Positions 22,327-57,215 of a stretch of 64,000 nucleotides of DNA are shown here, piece after piece. The first letter of the stretch is position 1, and each line of letters opens with the position of its first letter. Under the pieces are notes generated by a model. It had not been told where the DNA came from. It did not search any database and worked only from the letters and a program-made list of their open reading frames with translations. The position numbers and the translations under genes are program-made. This DNA comes from Oribacterium sp. WCC10 (GTDB lineage Bacteria > Bacillota > Clostridia > Lachnospirales > Lachnospiraceae), in contig NZ_FOPH01000015.1 of assembly GCF_900113415.1 (NCBI RefSeq), forward strand, positions 1 through 64,000, read 5' to 3'.

Positions 22327-22598
22327 ATGACGTGAGTGTCAAAAGTATTTACCACTCACTGATTAGCGCTAACGCACACATTCGTGTGCATAGAGCAGGA
22401 ATCCTTACAGATTCCTTTGAAGCGCTCAAAGCCGCGTGGCTCCTTCGATTAAAAATCGAAGGCAGTTGTGCTGCTGAACACGAATAACTCACGTCCTTTT
22501 GCTATGCAAAACGACTATGTTATTCGTGTTCGGGCGGGTCATAAAGTCTCAAATCAACGTGCAAGCACGTGATTTGGTACTTTTGACCCTTACATCAT
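22327..22598 (+). repeat. MITE-like repeat family 1, long copy
   Basis: A 272-base element. The left end GTGAGTGTCAAAAGTA and the complement of the right end (GTAAGGGTCAAAAGTA) are inverted repeats with 18 of 21 positions matching when the outer ATGA is included. Inside are several hairpins (GCACACATTCGTGTGC, CTTCGATTAAAAATCGAAG, GTGCAAGCAC). Compared with 30647-30845 it has an extra internal block. The right end stops one base before the TSCPD gene's stop codon. No coding capacity. The rest of the 22121-22599 gap shows nothing clear. Confidence 0.75.
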
Positions 22599-30646: not shown

Positions 30647-30845
30647 ATGACGTGAGTGTCAAAAGTATTTGCCACTCACAAATGATGCGCAGCACGCACA
30701 CATTCGTGTGCAATGTGCTGCTGAACACTCATAACTCACGTCCTTTTGCTATGCAAAACGACTACGTTATTCGTGTTCGGGCGGGTCATAAAGTCTCAAA
30801 TCAACGTGCAAGCACGTGATTTGGTACTTTTGACCCTTACATCAT
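30647..30845 (+). repeat. MITE-like repeat family 1, copy c
   Basis: A 199-base element with the same inverted ends and the same right-hand half as the 22327 copy (from AACTCACGTCCTTTTGCTAT to CCTTACATCAT almost identical). Internal hairpins GCACAC/GTGTGC, TTTTGCTATGCAAAA and GTGCAAGCAC. Inserted upstream of the histidine phosphatase gene. Confidence 0.75.
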
Positions 30846-33260: not shown

Positions 33261-33298
33261 AAAAAACCCCGGCAGAATCAATTCTGATTCTGCCAGGG
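33261..33298 (-). terminator. T-box terminator
   Basis: GGCAGAATCA (33271-33280) pairs with TGATTCTGCC (33285-33294), extended by CCCC/AGGG and followed leftward by six T. The T-box antiterminator would compete with its 5' side. Confidence 0.92.
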
Positions 33299-33634
33299 AC
33301 GAATAATCTTCGCGGTGCCACCCTGCTTCACATACTATGTGCGCTTTGCGAGATACCAACATATCTCCGACTACTAACGTAAGCCTCACGTCACAGGATA
33401 CTCGGCAAACTTCCTGATAGATCGGGACATCTGATCCGGTGCAGATTCTCACTGTACCGGATAACGAACACATCAAAGTTGTGTTCGGAAATCTATCATG
33501 TACTGCCTTTCATTGTGCCCTTAGCGGTCCATTTGCGAAACTGTAATTCTGCCGGATTCTCACCATCGCCGGCTCTCTGTGAGAGCATATTCCGTTTTAT
33601 CTCCGCCTCAACGGTTTGTGGTTTCTATTAAATT
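33261..33634 (-). ncRNA. tryptophan T-box leader of trpEG
   Basis: The T-box sequence GGTGGCACCGCGAAGATT is at 33322-33305 (minus). Upstream is a Stem I-like region with the GGTGAGAA motif, and the specifier TGG (33531-33529) in AAATGGACCGC, the usual context after the specifier loop. Further hairpins follow (GAACACA/TGTGTTC, ATCCGGT/ACCGGAT). Uncharged tRNA-Trp should stabilise the antiterminator and allow trpEG transcription. Confidence 0.92.
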
Positions 33635-43569: not shown

Positions 43570-43856
43570 TGACATAAGTGCCATAAGTCTATCTCCCGTT
43601 TGTGCTTGCACAAAAATGGGAGATAGACTTCATGACACGCCCCACATGGAGCACGTAAGGACGCTTTCTGCGGACTGGGAGTGCGGAATGTGGGAGAATC
43701 GTGATAGCGCTATGCGCGGAACGATTCGATGTCGATTTTTGACACTCACTGATGATGCGCAGCACACACATTCGTGTTCGGGCACACTTAAGTGCGAACG
43801 GGACGAACACTGCAAGCGGGATGTGCTCTCAATTGAGTGAGCCGGCGCCCGCCCTT
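43570..43856 (+). repeat. degenerate repeat family 1 relative with long hairpins
   Basis: Begins ATGACATAAGTGCCATAAGT, like a family 1 end, and contains TTTTTGACACTCACTGATGA, TGCGCAGCACACACATTCGTG and GTTCGGGC as in the 30647 copy. It also has a double hairpin: AAGTCTATCTCCC/GGGAGATAGACTT enclosing TTTGTGC/GCACAAA (43582-43632), which may end the phosphohexomutase transcript. Order differs from the other copies, suggesting rearrangement. Confidence 0.5.
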
Positions 43857-49326: not shown

Positions 49327-50172
49327 TTAAATACCTGCTCCACATTCGCCGAAGAACTGCTCTGCTTCCGGCGTGTCAGGAGAATAAAGGATACGACTTC
49401 CTGCGGGCACAGAGCTGACGATCCAGGTACTTGCACCGATGACGGAATTATCACCGATGTAGGTATTACCGCCAAGTATGGTGGCATTGGCATAGATGAC
49501 TACATTGTTGCCGATGTTAGGATGACGTTTGATATCCTTGACAGGATTGCCGTTTTCATCCACCTCAAAGCTCTTTGCACCGAGAGTTACTCCCTGATAG
49601 AGTTTAACATGATTTCCGATAACCGTCGTTTCGCCTACTACGATACCTGTTGCATGATCAATGAAGAAATGCTCTCCGATCTTTGCACCAGGGTGAATAT
49701 CAACACCGGTCTTTTCATGGGCAAATTCCGTCATCATACGTGGAATAAGCGGAACATGCATGTCATAAAGAATGTGAGCAATTCGATATATCGCTATAGC
49801 TTTGAAACCGGGGTAGCAGAGAACTATCTCTTCACGGTTTTTGGCAGCCGGGTCACCGGCGTAAAATGATTCGATATCTGTGAAAAGTATCTTTTTAACC
49901 TCTGGGATACTTGTCATAAATGTTTCTGTAAGCTGTTCAGGGTCAATACCCTGAGTCATATTTCCCGTGGCCTTAAAGGCTATCTTTATCTGAGATTCAA
50001 GTCTCCTGGCAATGGATTTTAGATTGGTTGATTCCTTGGTATAAAATCCCCCCGGAAACATCAGTGAAAGAATATCCATAACTATGGATCGTACTTCCCT
50101 TATCTCAGGAACTTTTGTTTTGAAGGTACCTACAGTATCTATTTCTTGCTGCAACTTTGCTAAATTTATCAT
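49327..50172 (-). CDS. cysE: serine O-acetyltransferase (EpsC type)
   Basis: A 281-residue enzyme making O-acetylserine from serine and acetyl-CoA. An alpha-helical N-terminal domain is followed by the left-handed beta-helix with GVDIHPGAKIGEHFFIDHATGI, VVGETTVIGNHVKLYQGVTL and HPNIGNNVVIYANATILG. The catalytic His is in DHATG. The N-terminal region is of the longer EpsC-like type rather than E. coli CysE. ATG 50172 follows AGGGATG. It is 84 bases downstream of cysK, which supplies the next step, and shares the leader at 51323-51602. Confidence 0.94.
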   Translation of the reverse strand: MINLAKLQQEIDTVGTFKTKVPEIREVRSIVMDILSLMFPGGFYTKESTNLKSIARRLESQIKIAFKATGNMTQGIDPEQLTETFMTSIPEVKKILFTDIESFYAGDPAAKNREEIVLCYPGFKAIAIYRIAHILYDMHVPLIPRMMTEFAHEKTGVDIHPGAKIGEHFFIDHATGIVVGETTVIGNHVKLYQGVTLGAKSFEVDENGNPVKDIKRHPNIGNNVVIYANATILGGNTYIGDNSVIGASTWIVSSVPAGSRILYSPDTPEAEQFFGECGAGI

Positions 50173-50256
50173 CTTACATCCCTATAAATGAAAACAATCT
50201 CTGTGAACAGTTACGCGTTCCATTATAGCATCAAGTTAGATGATACATCAAATCAC

Positions 50257-51189
50257 TTACTCAGTGAAAAGCGGTGTTGAGTAATATCTGTCTCCACTGT
50301 CAGGAAGAAGTGCTACGATTGTCTTTCCTTTATTTTCAGGTCTCTTTGCAAGATCAATGGCAGCATGAAGTGCGGCACCGGAAGAGATACCGACAGAGAT
50401 ACCTTCCTTTCTTGCGAGAAGCTTTGCGGTTGCAAATGCATCCTGACTTGAAGCCTTATATACTTCATCATACACCTTTGTATTGAGAACATCAGGTACA
50501 AAACCTGCTCCGATTCCCTGAATCTTGTGAGCGCCGGCCTTGCCCTCAGAGAGAACAGGTGAATCTTCAGGCTCAAGAGCTATTACCTTGACATCAGGAT
50601 TCTGCTCTTTCAGATACTCTCCTGTTCCGGTTACTGTTCCGCCGGTTCCTACTCCTGCAATAAAAATGTCTACCTTACCGTCAGTATCTCTCCAGATCTC
50701 CGGACCGGTTGTTGCCTTGTGTACTGCCGGATTTGCCGGATTAACAAACTGTCCGGGTATGAAACCTCCCGGGATCTCACTGGCAAGCTCTTCTGCTTTT
50801 GCGATAGCACCCTTCATACCCTTGGCACCTTCGGTAAGCACAATTTCGGCACCGTAGTTCTTGAGAATGCTTCTGCGCTCAACGCTCATTGTCTCCGGCA
50901 TGGTAAGAATGATTCTGTATCCCTTTGAAGCTGCAATGGCAGCAAGTCCGATACCTGTATTGCCGGATGTAGGCTCGATGATGACTGAACCTTCCTTAAG
51001 AAGACCTTTTTCCTCAGCATCCTCTATCATAGCCTTTGCGATACGATCCTTGACACTTCCTGCCGGATTCAGATACTCAAGCTTTACAAGAACTGTAGCC
51101 TCAAGACCAAGCTCCTTTTCGATATTTACAACCTCAACGAGAGGTGTATTTCCAACGAGTCCAAGTGTTCCCTTATAAATGTTTGCCAT
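50257..51189 (-). CDS. cysK: cysteine synthase A (O-acetylserine sulfhydrylase)
   Basis: A 310-residue PLP enzyme forming cysteine from O-acetylserine and sulfide. The PLP Lys is in [35 protein letters not shown] and ISSGAALHA are PLP/substrate loops. ATG 51189 follows AAGGGG. First structural gene after a leader that carries a Cys-rich small ORF and a terminator, so its expression should rise when cysteinyl-tRNA is scarce (inference). Confidence 0.96.
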
Positions 51190-51322
51190 AACTTATTCCC
51201 CTTTATATTTTGATTTATATTTTTTTCAATATTCAATTTTTATTTATTTCGAAAGTCGTGTTGATGCAATGAGGTTTGATGTCATTCTGTCAAAGATTTG
51301 CAGATTTATGAAGTCAGGATAT

Positions 51323-51353
51323 AAAAAAGCCCGGAAGATTATCTCTTCCGGGC
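51323..51353 (-). terminator. attenuator terminator of cysK-cysE
   Basis: GCCCGGAAGA (51353-51344) and TCTTCCGGGC (51338-51329) pair perfectly over 10 bases with loop GATAA and are followed leftward by six T. It lies 134 bases before cysK, inside the leader transcript. Confidence 0.88.
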
Positions 51354-51431
51354 ACTTAACTTCGTTAAATCAAGGCTTCACATCAGCATGAACATCGACA
51401 TGACAATAAAAGAGCCTCTTTAAACGCCCGG
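51348..51431 (-). promoter_or_regulatory. antiterminator pairing in the cysK leader
   Basis: CCGGGCGTTTAA (51431-51420) can pair with TTAAGTGCCCGG (51359-51348) over 12 continuous base pairs (two G-T). The second strand includes the first six bases of the terminator's 5' arm, so the two structures exclude each other. The first strand lies 11 bases beyond the last of four consecutive Cys codons. Confidence 0.6.
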
Positions 51432-51493
51432 GTATCTGTCATGCAGCAACAACACTGGTTAATTCTGTTTTCTGCTATCATTACGTTAAGCAT
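51383..51493 (-). CDS. cysteine-rich leader peptide of cysK-cysE
   Basis: A 36-codon ORF starting ATG 51493, eight bases after GGAGG (51506-51502). The peptide has Cys-Cys-Cys-Cys at codons 14-17 (TGT TGT TGC TGC) and ends Cys-Arg-Cys-Ser-Cys before TGA. Seven of 36 residues are Cys, upstream of genes for cysteine synthesis. It lies between a near-consensus promoter and an intrinsic terminator. Low Cys-tRNA should stall the ribosome at the Cys run, leave the antiterminator strand free and permit transcription; ample cysteine should let the ribosome disrupt it and favour termination. Two shorter ATG frames nearby end within five codons and are less likely. No family match is needed; the peptide is probably not functional itself. 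Confidence 0.75.
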   Translation of the reverse strand: MLNVMIAENRINQCCCCMTDTRAFKEALLLSCRCSC

Positions 51494-51573
51494 CGTTCAT
51501 GCCTCCATGTGTTATATAGAATGTCGGGAGTGATAAGCATTGTTAATTCCTACCGAATCACTCTGATATAACA

Positions 51574-51602
51574 ATCATATAAGCTTTTTTTATTGATGTC
51601 AA
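51574..51602 (-). promoter_or_regulatory. promoter of the cysK-cysE leader
   Basis: TTGACA (51602-51597), 17-base spacer, TATGAT (51579-51574). Expected start ~51567, about 75 bases before the leader ORF. Confidence 0.8.
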
Positions 51603-51644
51603 CGATTTAGATATTCCGTGTGAGTATACATGATATAACTTGAT

Positions 51645-51980
51645 TCATTTTACAAGCTTCACAAACTCATTTTTCTCAAGACTTTTCATATAGACGCTGA
51701 GTCTCTCGTATAGAGGTTCCGCTTCTTCCCCGAAGTGATCGTGAACCATCTGACCTATTTCATATACACTTTTTTTACCATCTATACATCCGAAGATAAA
51801 GCTTCCCATACCTTCTATGTGAATATATGAAATCTTTGGCTTTTTGAAGAATTTTTGCGCCAGTCTGTTTGTGAAGCCTTTGTTTTCCATTTCAACTATG
51901 ACCTCCCCGGACTCGGAGCGAGTCCAGCGGAGGTCATTGTTTATCTCATATATACGATCTAAAAAATTATTATTTTGCAT
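51645..51980 (-). CDS. PqqD-like small protein
   Basis: A 111-residue protein with a PqqD-type fold pattern: short beta start (IYEINNDLRWTRSESGEVIVEM), then SYIHIEGMGSFIFGCIDGKKSVYEIGQMV and a helical end. PqqD proteins hold peptide substrates for radical SAM enzymes, but no partner enzyme is next to it. ATG 51980 overlaps the OPT gene stop by 11 bases, so it is translated from the same message. The Shine-Dalgarno is weak. Confidence 0.75.
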   Translation of the reverse strand: MQNNNFLDRIYEINNDLRWTRSESGEVIVEMENKGFTNRLAQKFFKKPKISYIHIEGMGSFIFGCIDGKKSVYEIGQMVHDHFGEEAEPLYERLSVYMKSLEKNEFVKLVK

Positions 51981-53850
51981 TTTTCTTAACCATAGCTGCC
52001 TTAAGTACCAAAGCAGAAACGATGATAATGAGAACAAGTGCAGGGATGTTTCCAGAAGGAACCATTGCACTTAAGTTAATACGATCAGTTACTCCCATAA
52101 CTGTGAGAACTGCAAGGAGTACACCGATGATACCCTCTCCGGCGATAAGTCCTGAACAGAAAAGGATACCCTTTCCGGACTCTCCGTTCTCCTTACCGAA
52201 CTTCTTGTCTGCAAAGAGCTTGATGAGACCACCGATCATGATGGTGGATGAAAGCTCAAGAGGAAGGTAAAGACCAATTGAAACAGGAAGTGCGGCAATA
52301 CCAAGTATCTCAACAGAGATGGAAATGAATGCACCGATAAAGATAAGTGCCCATGGAAGGTTACCGCTCATTACACCTTCGATGATCATCTTCATCATAG
52401 TAGCCTGAGGAGCAGCGAGCTTGTCTGAACCAAAGCCGTAAGCATTGTCCAAAAGGATCATAACACCACCGATGGCAAATGCTGCTGCAACTGTACCGAT
52501 GATCTCACCGATCTGCTGCTTCACAGGAGTAGCACCAAGGATGTAACCGGTCTTGAGATCCTGAGAAGTATCACCTGCCATACATGTTGCGATACAGATG
52601 ATAGAACCGATGGCGATGGCGCCCTGCATACCCATAACACCTGTATCACCTGCTGCCTTAAGACAGATTGTAGTGATAAGGATGGTGGCAATGGTCATAC
52701 CTGAAACAGGGTTGTTTGAGCTTCCTACGAGACCAACCATACGTGATGAAACGGCACTGAAGAAGAAACCGAATACAACGATGAGGATGGCGCCGAGAAG
52801 TGTTACAGGCTCAACAGGAACGATCCATATTGCAAGTATGATAAGCACGATAGTGCCGAGAACAAGGCGGATGTCCATGTCGATGGCTGTACGCTCGTTT
52901 GTAACCTTACCTGCATTTGAAATGCTCTTAACTGAATCTATAAATGTTCTTACGATAAGAGGGAGTGTCTTTATAAGGCTGATGATTCCGGCCGCAGCAA
53001 CTGCACCGGCACCGATATACTTGATGTAGTTTGACCAAATGGCTGAAGCGCCGCCTGTTGCATAAAGCTCTGATACAGAAACGCTTGCAGGATACATCAC
53101 CATGTCTCCACCGAAAGTTGCGATGAGAGGAATCAGCACGAACCAGCCAAGAACACCACCGGCAAACATATATGCAGAAATTCTTGGTCCGCAGATGTAA
53201 CCTACTGATATAAGTGCAGGATAAACCTCTGCTGACAGCTCGGTTTTAAGTGCATTGATCTTTAATGTTACAACACCCTGAACAGCCATAAGACCGTCAA
53301 CGATGAACTTAACCAAAGCACCAAGTCCCATTCCGAGGAATACTGACTTTGCTGAGGAACCGCCCTCTTCTCCTGCGAGAAGTACTTCAGCACATGCTGT
53401 TCCTTCAGGATAAGGAAGTACGCCATGCTCCTGAACGATAAGTGCATTACGAAGCGGTACCATGAAAAATACACCTAAAAGTCCGCCGAAAAGAGCAGTG
53501 ATAGTTATAGCTACAAGTGAAGGCTTGTCCATGATGCCTTCCTTGGCCCAAATAAAAAGAGCCGGCATGGTAAAGATAGTTCCGGCTGCAAGTGACTCAC
53601 CTGCTGAACCGATGGTCTGAACCATATTGCTCTCAAGAACTGAATCTTTATTCAGAATAACTCGGATAACAGCCATGGAAATAACTGCTGCCGGGATAGA
53701 TGCAGATACTGTCATACCAACTCTGAGTCCCAGGTAAGCATTGGCTGCACCAAAGATTACTGCAAGGAAAAGTCCCATGACAATGGATGTGACCGTCATC
53801 TCCGGAATAACCTTATCCGCAGGGATATACGGTTTGAATTGATCGTTCAT
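51970..53850 (-). CDS. OPT-family oligopeptide transporter
   Basis: A 626-residue OPT protein with about 15 membrane helices. It starts MTVTSIVMGLFLAVIFGAAN after a short lead; AYLGLRVGMTVSASIPAAVI and GGSSAKSVFLG are conserved OPT positions. It probably imports small peptides or metal-chelating peptides with protons. ATG 53850 is supported by a -10 box lying over the longer open frame; AGGAG is 13 bases upstream of it. Followed by an overlapping PqqD-like gene. Confidence 0.93.
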   Translation of the reverse strand: MNDQFKPYIPADKVIPEMTVTSIVMGLFLAVIFGAANAYLGLRVGMTVSASIPAAVISMAVIRVILNKDSVLESNMVQTIGSAGESLAAGTIFTMPALFIWAKEGIMDKPSLVAITITALFGGLLGVFFMVPLRNALIVQEHGVLPYPEGTACAEVLLAGEEGGSSAKSVFLGMGLGALVKFIVDGLMAVQGVVTLKINALKTELSAEVYPALISVGYICGPRISAYMFAGGVLGWFVLIPLIATFGGDMVMYPASVSVSELYATGGASAIWSNYIKYIGAGAVAAAGIISLIKTLPLIVRTFIDSVKSISNAGKVTNERTAIDMDIRLVLGTIVLIILAIWIVPVEPVTLLGAILIVVFGFFFSAVSSRMVGLVGSSNNPVSGMTIATILITTICLKAAGDTGVMGMQGAIAIGSIICIATCMAGDTSQDLKTGYILGATPVKQQIGEIIGTVAAAFAIGGVMILLDNAYGFGSDKLAAPQATMMKMIIEGVMSGNLPWALIFIGAFISISVEILGIAALPVSIGLYLPLELSSTIMIGGLIKLFADKKFGKENGESGKGILFCSGLIAGEGIIGVLLAVLTVMGVTDRINLSAMVPSGNIPALVLIIIVSALVLKAAMVKKNAK

Positions 53851-53887
53851 AATTATTAAATTTCTCCTATCTTTTTGCGGTTGTTCC

Positions 53888-53916
53888 ATTATATATGTAC
53901 TTTAATAACAAGACAA
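53888..53916 (-). promoter_or_regulatory. OPT gene promoter
   Basis: TTGTCT (53916-53911), 17-base spacer, TATAAT (53893-53888). Predicted start ~53881, giving a leader of about 30 bases. Confidence 0.75.
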
Positions 53917-54099: not shown

Positions 54100-55602
54100 C
54101 TACTCATTCTCTGCTCCTGTTGTAGTTCCATCCTTAAGGTGTATGATCAGTCTTCCGGTGCCTTTGGCATTCTGGTGCTGACCCTTTTGAAGATACTCCT
54201 CAAGGATCTTTGCACTTCCGGTGGCTATTTCTCTTGATGCATGATTCATCTCAAGCTCTTCTAAACTGATATCAAATCCGTCAAGAGTGTTGCGGAAATG
54301 GAATTCCTCAAGTCCCACCGTGAATACCCTGTCCTCATCTATCGGTTCGCCTTCAAAATCAAATCTCAGGAATTCATGTGTTTTCTGGTCATATTCAACC
54401 TGAAGTCCCTTTGAAAGCTGATAGAACTCTGTGTGTGCACCTTCAAGAGCCTCATCTCTCAGCATCCTCATGATGCCGTGTTTAATCTGTTTTCCTGTCC
54501 AGTAGGTTGCATGGATCGGTTTATTATAAGGATAGTTTTCATCGAAATCCCCTTTAGTCACAACCGGTCCCAGTTCTTCTGTGCGGATGGATCCGGAACC
54601 CAAAAGGAAGATATCAAGTCCCAGGGCATCTTTTAATATGTCGGAATATAGATCACCAAGCTCAGTCTCCATGATCCTTGATGGGTGAGTCAGCTTCCGC
54701 ACAAATTTTGTCAGGATTCGACCGTATTTTTCATCCGTCGCATTCTTGTAATTAAGTATCAGTCCCTCTATGGCAGGATCTCTTGGACAGGTTTTCTCAT
54801 TGATTGGTATAGGCTTCCATGTAAAGCTGTCAATCTTGTTTTCATCGGTATCTACCATGATGTCAAATCGCCCGATCTGGTCAGTGCCTGTTCCTGCCTG
54901 TACGATGGGGATGTCATTTACGATAGCCGGTTCCTCCAGAAATGTATGGGAATGCCCGCCTATTATTACATCCACGCCCCATGCGGGATCCAGCATTGCG
55001 GCAAGCTTTTTGTCCTCCTCAAATCCTATGTGGGTCAGAAGCACTGTGAAGTCTATATCGATGGCATTGTATGAATCACAGATTTTGCCGATTTCCTCTG
55101 CCGCATCCTCAAGGGTAATGAACGTACCGATTAGCTGATCCGACTTGCACTGCATCAGGGCAACCTCTGTGAGAATGCCTATGAACAGAATCCTCATACC
55201 GCCGACTTCCAGCACCTTACATGGCTCGAAGAGTCTTTTGTGATTGGTCTTTATATGAAGGTTTGCATTGATAATTGGAAACTCGGCACATTTTTCAAGG
55301 AAAAGGAGGTGAGCGATTCCGTAATCAACCTCATGATTTCCCAATGTCACTATGTCGGGGGACAGCATATTCATGATCTGTATGGTGGACAGGCCGTGAT
55401 ATTCTGAATCAATGACAGAGCCTCTGAACATATCGCCGGCTATGCAGTAGAGTACATTTTCCTCCTCATTACGAACCTTGCTGATATAACCGGACAGCAT
55501 GGACACGCCGCCAACGAGGTTCTCATCCACCTGCTCCGCAAGGAAATCCCCGTGCATATCATTGGAATGCAGTAATGTTAGTTTTTTCAAATGTTTTTCC
55601 AT
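54100..55602 (-). CDS. 5'-nucleotidase-like metallophosphatase, copy 2
   Basis: A 500-residue UshA/CpdB-family enzyme lacking a signal peptide. The calcineurin-like domain has LLHSNDMHGDF, AGDMFRGS, TLGNHEVDYG, LLTHIGFEEDKKLA and IIGGHSHTF, covering the metal ligands; the C-terminal nucleotide-binding domain has LLGSGSIRTEELG. It likely removes phosphate from nucleotides or cyclic nucleotides, inside the cell unless exported otherwise. ATG 55602 follows AAGGAAG. It is 107 bases downstream of a close paralogue at 55710-57215. Confidence 0.92.
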   Translation of the reverse strand: MEKHLKKLTLLHSNDMHGDFLAEQVDENLVGGVSMLSGYISKVRNEEENVLYCIAGDMFRGSVIDSEYHGLSTIQIMNMLSPDIVTLGNHEVDYGIAHLLFLEKCAEFPIINANLHIKTNHKRLFEPCKVLEVGGMRILFIGILTEVALMQCKSDQLIGTFITLEDAAEEIGKICDSYNAIDIDFTVLLTHIGFEEDKKLAAMLDPAWGVDVIIGGHSHTFLEEPAIVNDIPIVQAGTGTDQIGRFDIMVDTDENKIDSFTWKPIPINEKTCPRDPAIEGLILNYKNATDEKYGRILTKFVRKLTHPSRIMETELGDLYSDILKDALGLDIFLLGSGSIRTEELGPVVTKGDFDENYPYNKPIHATYWTGKQIKHGIMRMLRDEALEGAHTEFYQLSKGLQVEYDQKTHEFLRFDFEGEPIDEDRVFTVGLEEFHFRNTLDGFDISLEELEMNHASREIATGSAKILEEYLQKGQHQNAKGTGRLIIHLKDGTTTGAENE

Positions 55603-55709: not shown

Positions 55710-57215
55710 TTATCTTCCTCTTTCAGCCAATGCCTGTTTTGCTTCATTTGTCAAATGAAGGTTTAGTCTTCCTTCTATCTTTGCATCCTGATGCTGTCCC
55801 TCTACAAGCATTTCCTCCAAAACCTGGGCACATGAGGTTGCGATCGCGCGGTGCTTGTGATTCTTATCAAGCTCTTCCATCTTAAGGTCGAAGGAATCTT
55901 CAAGATTCCTGTAATGATATTCCTGCAATCCTACTGTGAATATCTGGTCATCCGTAACAGGTTTACCATTGAAATCAAATTTCAGGAAAGAATGGGTCAC
56001 CATGTCGTATTCTATGGAAAGACCTTTGGAAACCTGATAGAATTCCGTATGTTCGCCGAAAAATGCTTCGTCTCTCATCATTCTCATGATGCCATGCTTA
56101 AGCTGCTTCCCTGTCCAGTATGTAAGGATGGCCTCATCGTCATAAGGAAATGTTTCCATGAGATCTCCCTTTGTAACAACAGGACCAAGTTTCCTGGTTC
56201 GTATGGAGCCCGATCCAAGAAGGAAAATGTCTACACCAAGAGAATTCTGAAGGATGTCCGCCAAAAGATTTCCAACTTCGGTTTCCATGTAACGGGACGG
56301 ATTTGAAAGCTTTCTTGTAAATTTAGTAAGAATCCGGCCATATTTCGCATCAGTCACATCTTTGTAATTCTTGATGATATCTTCCATTGCAAGGTCTTTG
56401 GGGCAGGTTTTCTCATTGATGGGAACCGGCTTCCATGTAAAGCTGTCTATCCTGTTCTCATCAGTGTCTATCATGATATCGAAACGCCCGATCTGATCGG
56501 TACCTGTTCCGGCCTGAACGATGGGGATACCGTTTACGATTGCAGGTTCTTCAAGAAAAGTATGGGAATGGCCTCCTATTATAACGTCTACTCCCAATGC
56601 AGGATCCAGCAGGGAAGCCAGCTTTTTGTCCTCTTCAAAACCAATATGTGTCAACAGAACAGTAAAATCGATATCAATAGAATTATAGGTATTACATATC
56701 TTTCCGACTTCCGCTGCTGCCTCCTCAACGGTTATGAAGGTCCCAATGAGGTCGTCCTTTTTGCAGTCATTTAAAACCATCTCTGTCAGTATTCCTATGA
56801 AGAGAATCTTCATGCCGTCAACTTCCAGGATTTTGTAGGGTTCAAAGAGTCTCGTATTATTGGTTTTGATATGCAGGTTTGCATTAACGATCGGAAATTC
56901 GGCACATTTTTCCAGAAAGAGAAGGTGGGCGATTCCGTAATCTACTTCGTGGTTTCCTAAAGACACTATATCGGGGGCAAGCATATTCATGATCTGTATA
57001 GTGGACAGTCCCTGATACTCTGAATCTATGATGGAGCCTCTGAACATGTCTCCTGCTATACAGTAAATGACATTTTCTTCTTCCTGACGTACTTTACTGA
57101 TGTAACCTGACAAAAGGGATAATCCTCCTACAAGATTCTCATCCACCTTCTCCGCAAGGAAATCTCCATGCATGTCGTTTGAATGCAATAGAGTGAGTTT
57201 TTTGATATTGCCCAT
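55710..57215 (-). CDS. 5'-nucleotidase-like metallophosphatase, copy 1
   Basis: A 501-residue paralogue of the next gene with the same motifs (LLHSNDMHGDF, GNHEVDYG, GGHSHTF, GSGSIRTRKLG), matching for long stretches and diverging mainly in the C-terminal domain. Also without a signal peptide. ATG 57215 follows GGAGG. Tandem location and equal length point to a local duplication; divergence across the C-terminal domain suggests different substrates. Confidence 0.92.
   Translation of the reverse strand: MGNIKKLTLLHSNDMHGDFLAEKVDENLVGGLSLLSGYISKVRQEEENVIYCIAGDMFRGSIIDSEYQGLSTIQIMNMLAPDIVSLGNHEVDYGIAHLLFLEKCAEFPIVNANLHIKTNNTRLFEPYKILEVDGMKILFIGILTEMVLNDCKKDDLIGTFITVEEAAAEVGKICNTYNSIDIDFTVLLTHIGFEEDKKLASLLDPALGVDVIIGGHSHTFLEEPAIVNGIPIVQAGTGTDQIGRFDIMIDTDENRIDSFTWKPVPINEKTCPKDLAMEDIIKNYKDVTDAKYGRILTKFTRKLSNPSRYMETEVGNLLADILQNSLGVDIFLLGSGSIRTRKLGPVVTKGDLMETFPYDDEAILTYWTGKQLKHGIMRMMRDEAFFGEHTEFYQVSKGLSIEYDMVTHSFLKFDFNGKPVTDDQIFTVGLQEYHYRNLEDSFDLKMEELDKNHKHRAIATSCAQVLEEMLVEGQHQDAKIEGRLNLHLTNEAKQALAERGR

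Follow-up and report, generated by a model that had tools for sequence, protein, structure and literature searches.

The leader preceding the cysK-cysE operon in the window (the whole stretch of 64,000 nucleotides analysed here, from Oribacterium sp. WCC10) is very probably a ribosome-mediated transcription attenuator that reads Cys-tRNA. It belongs, as a divergent representative, to a leader family found in at least five families of the class searched and in three genomes beyond that class. Three helices (A, B and C) make up the antiterminator, and its 5' half is traversed by an upstream open reading frame (uORF) with Cys codons. Our account of the uORF, its Cys codons, the geometry, the predicted antiterminator and terminator, and the gene context is based on the sequence and on comparison with relatives.

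All elements of the leader lie on the minus strand. A consensus scan places a sigma-70-type promoter at 51574-51602 (TTGACA-17-TATGAT, 11 of 12 consensus letters), and the 5' leader upstream of the ATG would measure about 70-80 nt. The Shine-Dalgarno (SD) sequence GGAGG (51502-51506) stands 8 nt upstream of the ATG at 51493, which opens a leader peptide ORF of 36 codons plus TGA (51383-51493, peptide MLNVMIAENRINQCCCCMTDTRAFKEALLLSCRCSC); relatives carry similar uORFs. Four consecutive Cys codons, TGT TGT TGC TGC (51443-51454), form the proposed sensing site, and a second cluster, C-R-C-S-C, closes the ORF (51386-51400). Beginning 11 nt past the final codon of the four-Cys run, CCGGGCGTTTAA (51420-51431) is complementary over 12 bp to TTAAGTGCCCGG (51348-51359); these are the 5' and 3' strands of helix A, the former supported also by covariation in the family. 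The 3' strand overlaps by 6 nt (51348-51353) the 5' arm of an intrinsic terminator (51323-51353), which consists of a perfect 10-bp stem (51353-51329) with the 5-nt loop GATAA, followed by six T. Folding of the truncated leader adds helix B, GAGGCT (51413-51418) with AGCCTT (51372-51377), and, together with family covariation, helix C, which falls in the region between the B strands (51378-51412), mostly within the ORF.

The operon itself consists of cysK (cysteine synthase A, 50257-51189, minus strand), which scores 447.7 bits with NCBIfam TIGR01139 (cut-off 350.95), and cysE (serine O-acetyltransferase, 49327-50172, minus strand), which scores 171 bits with TIGR01172, under the cut-off of 210.65, and 157.4 with NF041874 (EpsC), over the cut-off of 150. 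A preliminary description of this DNA had named the near-consensus promoter, the Shine-Dalgarno sequence and 36-codon ORF with both Cys features, the segment pairing toward a perfect terminator and the cysteine-synthesis genes downstream, and all of these are present. Its single 12-bp antiterminator survives as a pairing and not as the sole helix; in its place stands the three-helix fold. Upstream on the same strand lies a gene for an OPT-family oligopeptide transporter (TIGR00733, over cut-off; 51970-53889), and a small ORF sits between it and the cysK leader.

Some parts of this arrangement are commonplace. Dinucleotide shuffles contain on average 7.46 SD-led ORFs with two-Cys-codon runs per window, and the scans of 50100-52000 give 5 promoter-like sites (4.8 expected) and 1 terminator-like site (1.1 expected), no excess over shuffles, so that promoter and terminator weigh only as parts of the whole. 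A Cys-rich ORF that came to lie beside an ordinary terminator by chance is nevertheless an extremely improbable explanation. The window contains one SD-led ORF no longer than 60 amino acids with four consecutive Cys codons, whereas 100 dinucleotide shuffles average 0.01, one of them having such an ORF. When the upstream strand was shuffled in the same dinucleotide-preserving way, 2 of 5000 sequences equalled the score of the 12-bp pairing. Chance would also leave unexplained that the window's leader is found by a model built without it, and that the helices covary across the family leaders. The folding of 51320-51560 has a z score of -3.05.

Among the matches listed, most named relatives of the window's cysK come from Lachnospiraceae and other clostridia, and on this ground we take the class searched to be Clostridia. 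A search of the genus for cysK gave 11 places in 10 of 17 genomes, the window's among them, and with the best 80 of a longer list from a scan of the collection they make up a set of 91 cysK loci. Several of these have a uORF with a Cys run ahead of cysK, and a common leader was recognised on reading 16 of them. A DNA pattern of the shared leader occurs at 11 places in 10 of 299 genomes of the taxonomic family, and the reversed pattern has no match in these 299 genomes; nine of the 11 places precede an ORF that resembles O-acetylhomoserine sulfhydrylase (by ORF start, by eye).

Within the genus, locus L003, whose cysK comes nearest to the window's (91% identical), has a Cys-rich, SD-led uORF of its own and keeps the window's helices with different letters: helix A is TCCCAGACTT/AAGTCCGGGA with one mismatch, and helix B is AAGACT/AGTCTT. 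In an alignment with many gaps, the two leaders are equal at 131 of 160 letters. The stretches covered for nine further cysK loci in the genus (L004-L012), at 56-74% identity, contain no leader of this kind. The expectation that related leaders would share Cys codons, covarying antiterminators and terminators is thus borne out by L003 and by the family models described below, and not by L004-L012.

An alignment of 17 leaders (A1, made with MAFFT), from which the window was left out, was combined with the three-helix structure into a covariance model, R1. This model matches the window's leader at E 2.1e-4, the sole match in its genome. In the family set it finds 51 places, distributed over 40 of the 299 genomes (the window's own among them). 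The class set gives 20 places in 13 of 391 genomes, spread over five families (f1, f32, f45, f61 and f62), and the phylum set gives 5, each in a different genome of the 398; three of these genomes (families f114 and f180) lie outside the class. Among the 91 cysK loci, 22, including the window's, have a leader upstream in the orientation of cysK, directly before the gene in 8 and farther up in 14; the seven of these 14 that were looked at all stand ahead of a metY-type gene.

The leaders from which R1 was trained had been picked for their Cys codons. A second model, R2, spans the leader from helix A onward only and is blind to the uORF; it matches 42 of the 299 family genomes and misses the window's own leader at E 0.01. 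We took 45 of its 53 matches (E up to 1e-3), 44 of which are R1 places and the other a 47-base match in genome G037. Once the 11 training places were removed from these 44, 33 matches remained, and at least one Cys codon precedes helix A in 31 of them and at least two in 26, against a background of 54.7% and 13.6%, respectively, for stretches of the same length from the same loci (best of three frames).

For the structural counts, 85 leader rows were reduced to 82 by dropping two near-duplicates and a weak second match in L003 (82-232, minus strand, E 0.002), the peptide of which begins MNTKYMNKKNMCCRMCCRMCRPM and the downstream gene of which is cut by the end of the locus. A further 15 failed an automatic rule on helix-A score or position, leaving 67; the main leader of L003 was returned by hand, giving 68 for the geometry counts. 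A Cys distance is available for 64 leaders, and 58 of those also have a recognised T tract and form the set for equilibrium folding.

On 84 distinct rows, in an alignment fitted to the structure, 90.1% of the cells in helices A, B and C are paired, compared with 81.9% in shuffles, and 133 cells are double-changed, compared with 32.9 in shuffles (0 of 500 reach the observed number) and 30-39 in slid versions. The unfitted alignment A1 has 17 double-changed cells against 5.6 (0 of 500), a smaller gain because its slid versions reach 3-11. RNAalifold on A1 returned helix A only; B and C were placed by eye and then counted. Helix A changes its letters and keeps complementarity also in single leaders, as in CUCCCAGGCA/UGCCUGGGAG and CUCCCGGACA/UGUCCGGGAG. 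The sequence CGAAUG right after the Cys codons is nearly invariant in the family leaders and is part of no supported helix.

Two further pairings were considered. Pairing of the Cys-run area with the region past helix B (strand 1:1', the classical anti-antiterminator) was rejected as a general feature: the mean z is -0.49 over 67 leaders, and values of 0.05 or less are reached in 7 of the 67 (window 0.117), a weak tendency. A local hairpin of strand A with the adjacent 3' sequence has 82.3% of its cells paired (80.1% in shuffles), 13 double-changed cells (7.3 in shuffles, reached by 5 of 500; slid 2-12) and a covariation score of 0.169 (0.144 in shuffles, reached by 1 of 500; slid 0.003-0.095). 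This hairpin is weakly supported and was left out of the model.

The uORF and the helices are arranged in much the same way throughout the family. A permissive automatic rule places an SD-led ORF that reaches helix A in 66 of 68 leaders, and within the 33 nt upstream of helix A these 66 uORFs have at least two Cys codons in 58 cases, one in 6 and none in 2. The last Cys codon ends 9-14 nt ahead of helix A in 56 of 64 leaders and exactly 11 nt ahead in 31; the window's spacing of 11 nt is the commonest value. In 61 of 66 the uORF ends around or just past helix C, its stop codon 24-69 nt downstream of A's 5' strand; for at least two of the five outliers (L083 and L112) the automatic rule seems to have picked a wrong frame. 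Frame switching was entertained when a first choice of frame put the Cys-rich peptides of L123, L144 and L151 in other frames; it was dropped because a later start rule returns all three to the common frame.

Nearly invariant stretches of primary sequence together with three conserved helices would also be expected of a riboswitch-like RNA that binds a ligand or a protein, with the uORF a mere passenger or helper. The open frame through the 5' half in 66 of 68 leaders and the clustering of stop codons about helix C count against such an RNA, as does the recurrence of Cys codons among the matches of the uORF-blind R2. The leaders searched have no Rfam match either: at gathering score, Rfam 15 gave none at the window's leader or at the leaders in 40 other cysK loci, its matches falling elsewhere in the loci, and at E up to 0.5 it gave nothing at the leader in five family members. 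We regard a riboswitch-like device as quite unlikely, and prefer attenuation by a translating ribosome.

Counted from the first base of the A-site codon, a ribosome shields about 12 nt downstream. With this footprint, a ribosome waiting at the Cys run would stop just short of helix A, and one moving on would open all three helices. Once at the window's stop codon, it would mask helix C and extend about as far as helix B's 3' strand. This answers in part a caveat raised in the preliminary description, that a ribosome resting at the stop codon would not itself cover the antiterminator strand.

We hypothesize the following sequence of events. When Cys-tRNA is scarce, the ribosome would halt at the Cys run with its leading edge just short of helix A, and A, B and C would fold once the 3' strand of A emerges. 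With this strand occupied the terminator would not form, and RNA polymerase would continue into cysK-cysE. When Cys-tRNA is ample, the ribosome would pass over the 5' sides of helices A and B, and then over C, on its way to the stop codon, and would keep the antiterminator open until the 3' arm of the terminator is made, upon which transcription would stop. For the window's leader we infer translation, stalling, timing and the direction of control.

Equilibrium folding of the 58 leaders is consistent with this direction across the family. Helix A beats the terminator in 48 and 47 leaders with the ribosome at the first and the last Cys codon, respectively, in 23 with the ribosome at the stop codon, and in none with the ribosome on A. 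It also wins in 38 of the 58 when the RNA is free of ribosomes, and the device therefore needs timely translation. The window's own leader comes out as the terminator at equilibrium whichever of the five states is assumed (P(A) 0.00), which means that the decision has to fall during transcription, as in a kinetic switch. When the window's RNA is cut before the 3' arm of the terminator, P(A) is 0.66 in the stalled and ribosome-free states and 0.57 with the ribosome at the stop codon, which is a small change. In the cut RNA of 64 leaders, P(A) exceeds 0.5 in 63 without a ribosome, in 64 and 63 with a stalled ribosome, and in 57 with the ribosome at the stop codon; in most members, a ribosome that has reached the end of the uORF would thus fail to prevent A. 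The earlier proposal of an attenuator of the trp/his kind that reads Cys-tRNA is upheld by the Cys codons, covariation and terminators of the family, and departed from by the window's equilibrium fold, which is always the terminator.

Control at the promoter by a repressor of the CymR/Rrf2 type, with the terminator merely fixing the level, is a second way to read the region. The window has TAGGAATTA at 51544-51552 (minus strand), seen in the sequence as a candidate half-operator and presumably of the CymR/Rrf2 type. Upstream of the leaders, CCTATTGAC, which we take to resemble an Rrf2/CymR operator, is present in 57 of 82 cases and overlaps the -35 element in those read by eye, and the genome encodes two Rrf2 proteins over cut-off. 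A repressor would leave the covarying antiterminator, the Cys codons and their spacing unaccounted for, and we consider it unlikely as the sole control; repression of this type can act in addition to attenuation.

The genes behind the leaders are on the whole a sulfur amino-acid set (metY/cystathionine enzymes, transporters and cysK). Taking as downstream gene the longest ORF that begins within 1.2 kb of the leader, a rule that skips cysK in L003 and L032, where cysK stands first, we obtained for 82 leaders clusters of 43 PLP enzymes of Cys/Met metabolism, 16 solute-binding proteins, 7 cysK, 3 ABC permeases and 2 ABC ATPases, a cluster of 3 represented by one tested protein with a GST C-terminal domain, and 8 single proteins. 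These names rest on the members searched, several of which score under curated cut-offs; the searched members of the PLP-enzyme cluster match Cys_Met_Meta_PP, and L117 matches SBP_bac_3. A glutamate-cysteine ligase-like gene follows the leader of L134 at 492 nt. The single proteins without an evident tie to sulfur are cyclase-like, a short-chain dehydrogenase, a peptidase and an unassigned protein. Behind the leader of L122 (1501-1651, plus strand) an ORF at 1737, cut by the end of the locus, is (2S)-3-sulfopropanediol dehydratase-like, and behind that of L162 (600-757, plus strand) an ORF at 1777, 1 kb away, resembles a nitrogenase-like component 1 protein/reductase; these two could represent scavenging of organosulfur compounds under cysteine control.

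The peptides themselves raise the question of what is sensed. In 50 of 63 uORFs a Met stands two codons past the last Cys, in 44 of 63 an Arg directly follows it, and at least two Met codons surround the Cys codons in 55 of 64. Two tested leaders, moreover, precede MetQ/NlpA-like (L138) and MetN-like (L167) transporter genes, both under curated cut-offs. The uORF might then sense Cys and Met together, or stall through its nascent peptide (M-C-C-R-M...), with the RNA switch unchanged. We think this improbable, if less so than control by a repressor. In the window's peptide, Met is confined to positions 1, 5 and 18, and the Cys run is not followed by Arg. The residues past the Cys codons coincide with conserved RNA (GAAUG, CUCCCGGGC), and a constraint on the RNA can therefore explain them; as Met has a single codon, a synonymous change gives no test. 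For the window we keep to Cys-tRNA as the signal. Only slightly less doubtful is a wider proposal, which we put forward tentatively: that the family is an undescribed, conserved class of sulfur-sensing leaders in Clostridia that read M-C-C-R-M (Cys and Met) through a three-helix antiterminator, govern a regulon of Cys/Met synthesis, uptake and perhaps organosulfur scavenging, and replace Cys T-boxes there.

Attenuators of the trp/his type in E. coli combine an SD-led leader ORF containing runs of regulatory codons with mutually exclusive antiterminator and terminator structures ahead of a biosynthetic operon. The window's leader shares with them the SD-led ORF with a codon run, an antiterminator that uses a strand of the terminator, and biosynthetic genes downstream. 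It differs from them in its Cys codons, in a three-helix antiterminator with the 5' half inside the ORF, and in the weak support here for pairings that restrain strand A in ribosome-free RNA. By its plan the leader belongs to a known kind, within which the amino acid, the host group and the architecture of the antiterminator set it apart. In letting the uORF extend across the antiterminator's 5' half, it clearly departs from the textbook design.

In Firmicutes, the Cys T-box (RF00230) senses the charging of tRNA-Cys and controls termination ahead of cys genes by binding the tRNA directly, without translation. No match to RF00230 at gathering score was found at the window's leader or at the 40 other cysK loci searched. 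The genome carries five T-boxes over cut-off, and the genome search also gave a T-box-like match under the cut-off within the window (33292-33620, minus strand, 69.5 bits against 93).

In mycobacteria, poly-Cys leaderless uORFs are reportedly cysteine-responsive, to go by the title of Canestrari et al. 2020. That work appears in the reference list of PMC13236596. Cys-codon uORFs before mycobacterial cys genes had been predicted earlier, in leaders described as having no conserved terminator hairpin (PMC1262725). The run of Cys codons in a uORF ahead of cys genes is common to those uORFs and the window (PMC1262725); unlike the leaderless mycobacterial uORFs, the window has a 5' leader with a Shine-Dalgarno sequence, an intrinsic terminator and a covarying antiterminator. 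The uORFC-8-2 motif, upstream of cysS in Rhodobacterales, has two tandem Cys codons and a terminator and is predicted to act by ribosome-mediated attenuation (PMC8632094). As described there, it differs from the window's leader, which precedes cysK, in being alphaproteobacterial, confined to cysS and built of two prominent stems (PMC8632094).

Within Firmicutes, T-boxes have been named the usual device for synthetase genes (PMC1262725, 2005), and His leader peptides of hisS/hisZ in bacilli, which stand in for T-boxes, were described as without precedent outside Proteobacteria and Actinobacteria (PMC2965389, 2010). Leader-peptide attenuation has accordingly been regarded so far as rare in this group (PMC1262725, PMC2965389). 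The bacillar leaders differ from the window's in their His codons and hisS*/hisZ genes (PMC2965389). Rli60, which precedes ilv-leu in Listeria, is a proven ribosome-mediated attenuator with branched-chain codons in a 13-aa peptide (PMC5864092). It resembles the present case in joining a Firmicutes leader peptide and a terminator/antiterminator to an additional global repressor (CodY in Rli60), and differs in reading branched-chain codons (PMC5864092). Among the matches listed from the open-licence literature, none describes an attenuator with Cys codons from Clostridia or Lachnospiraceae, in keeping with the earlier suggestion that the leader may be a new type for clostridia. If the reading given here is true, clostridial anaerobes have a translation-based sulfur gauge ahead of many genes for cysteine and methionine supply, and the covariance model can be used to annotate leaders that now carry no label.

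A simpler Cys-codon leader was seen by eye upstream of cysK in four other clostridial loci (L060, L068, L074 and L089), with peptides that contain MMCCDMCCERRVCFAIPI or MKCCDVRCEMRIRFVVPI. In three of the four the stop codon stands just before the apparent antiterminator strand, and a strong terminator follows it; these leaders are possibly of independent origin. Elsewhere in the 64-kb window there are three copies of Clostridiales-1 RNA (RF01699), at 43570-43734 (plus strand), 30683-30844 and 22446-22597 (both minus strand). Two tandem, very similar ORFs at 54100-55602 and 55710-57215 (minus strand), with LTLLHSNDMHGDF near the start, presumably belong with proteins of the 5'-nucleotidase/metallophosphatase kind, which they resemble.
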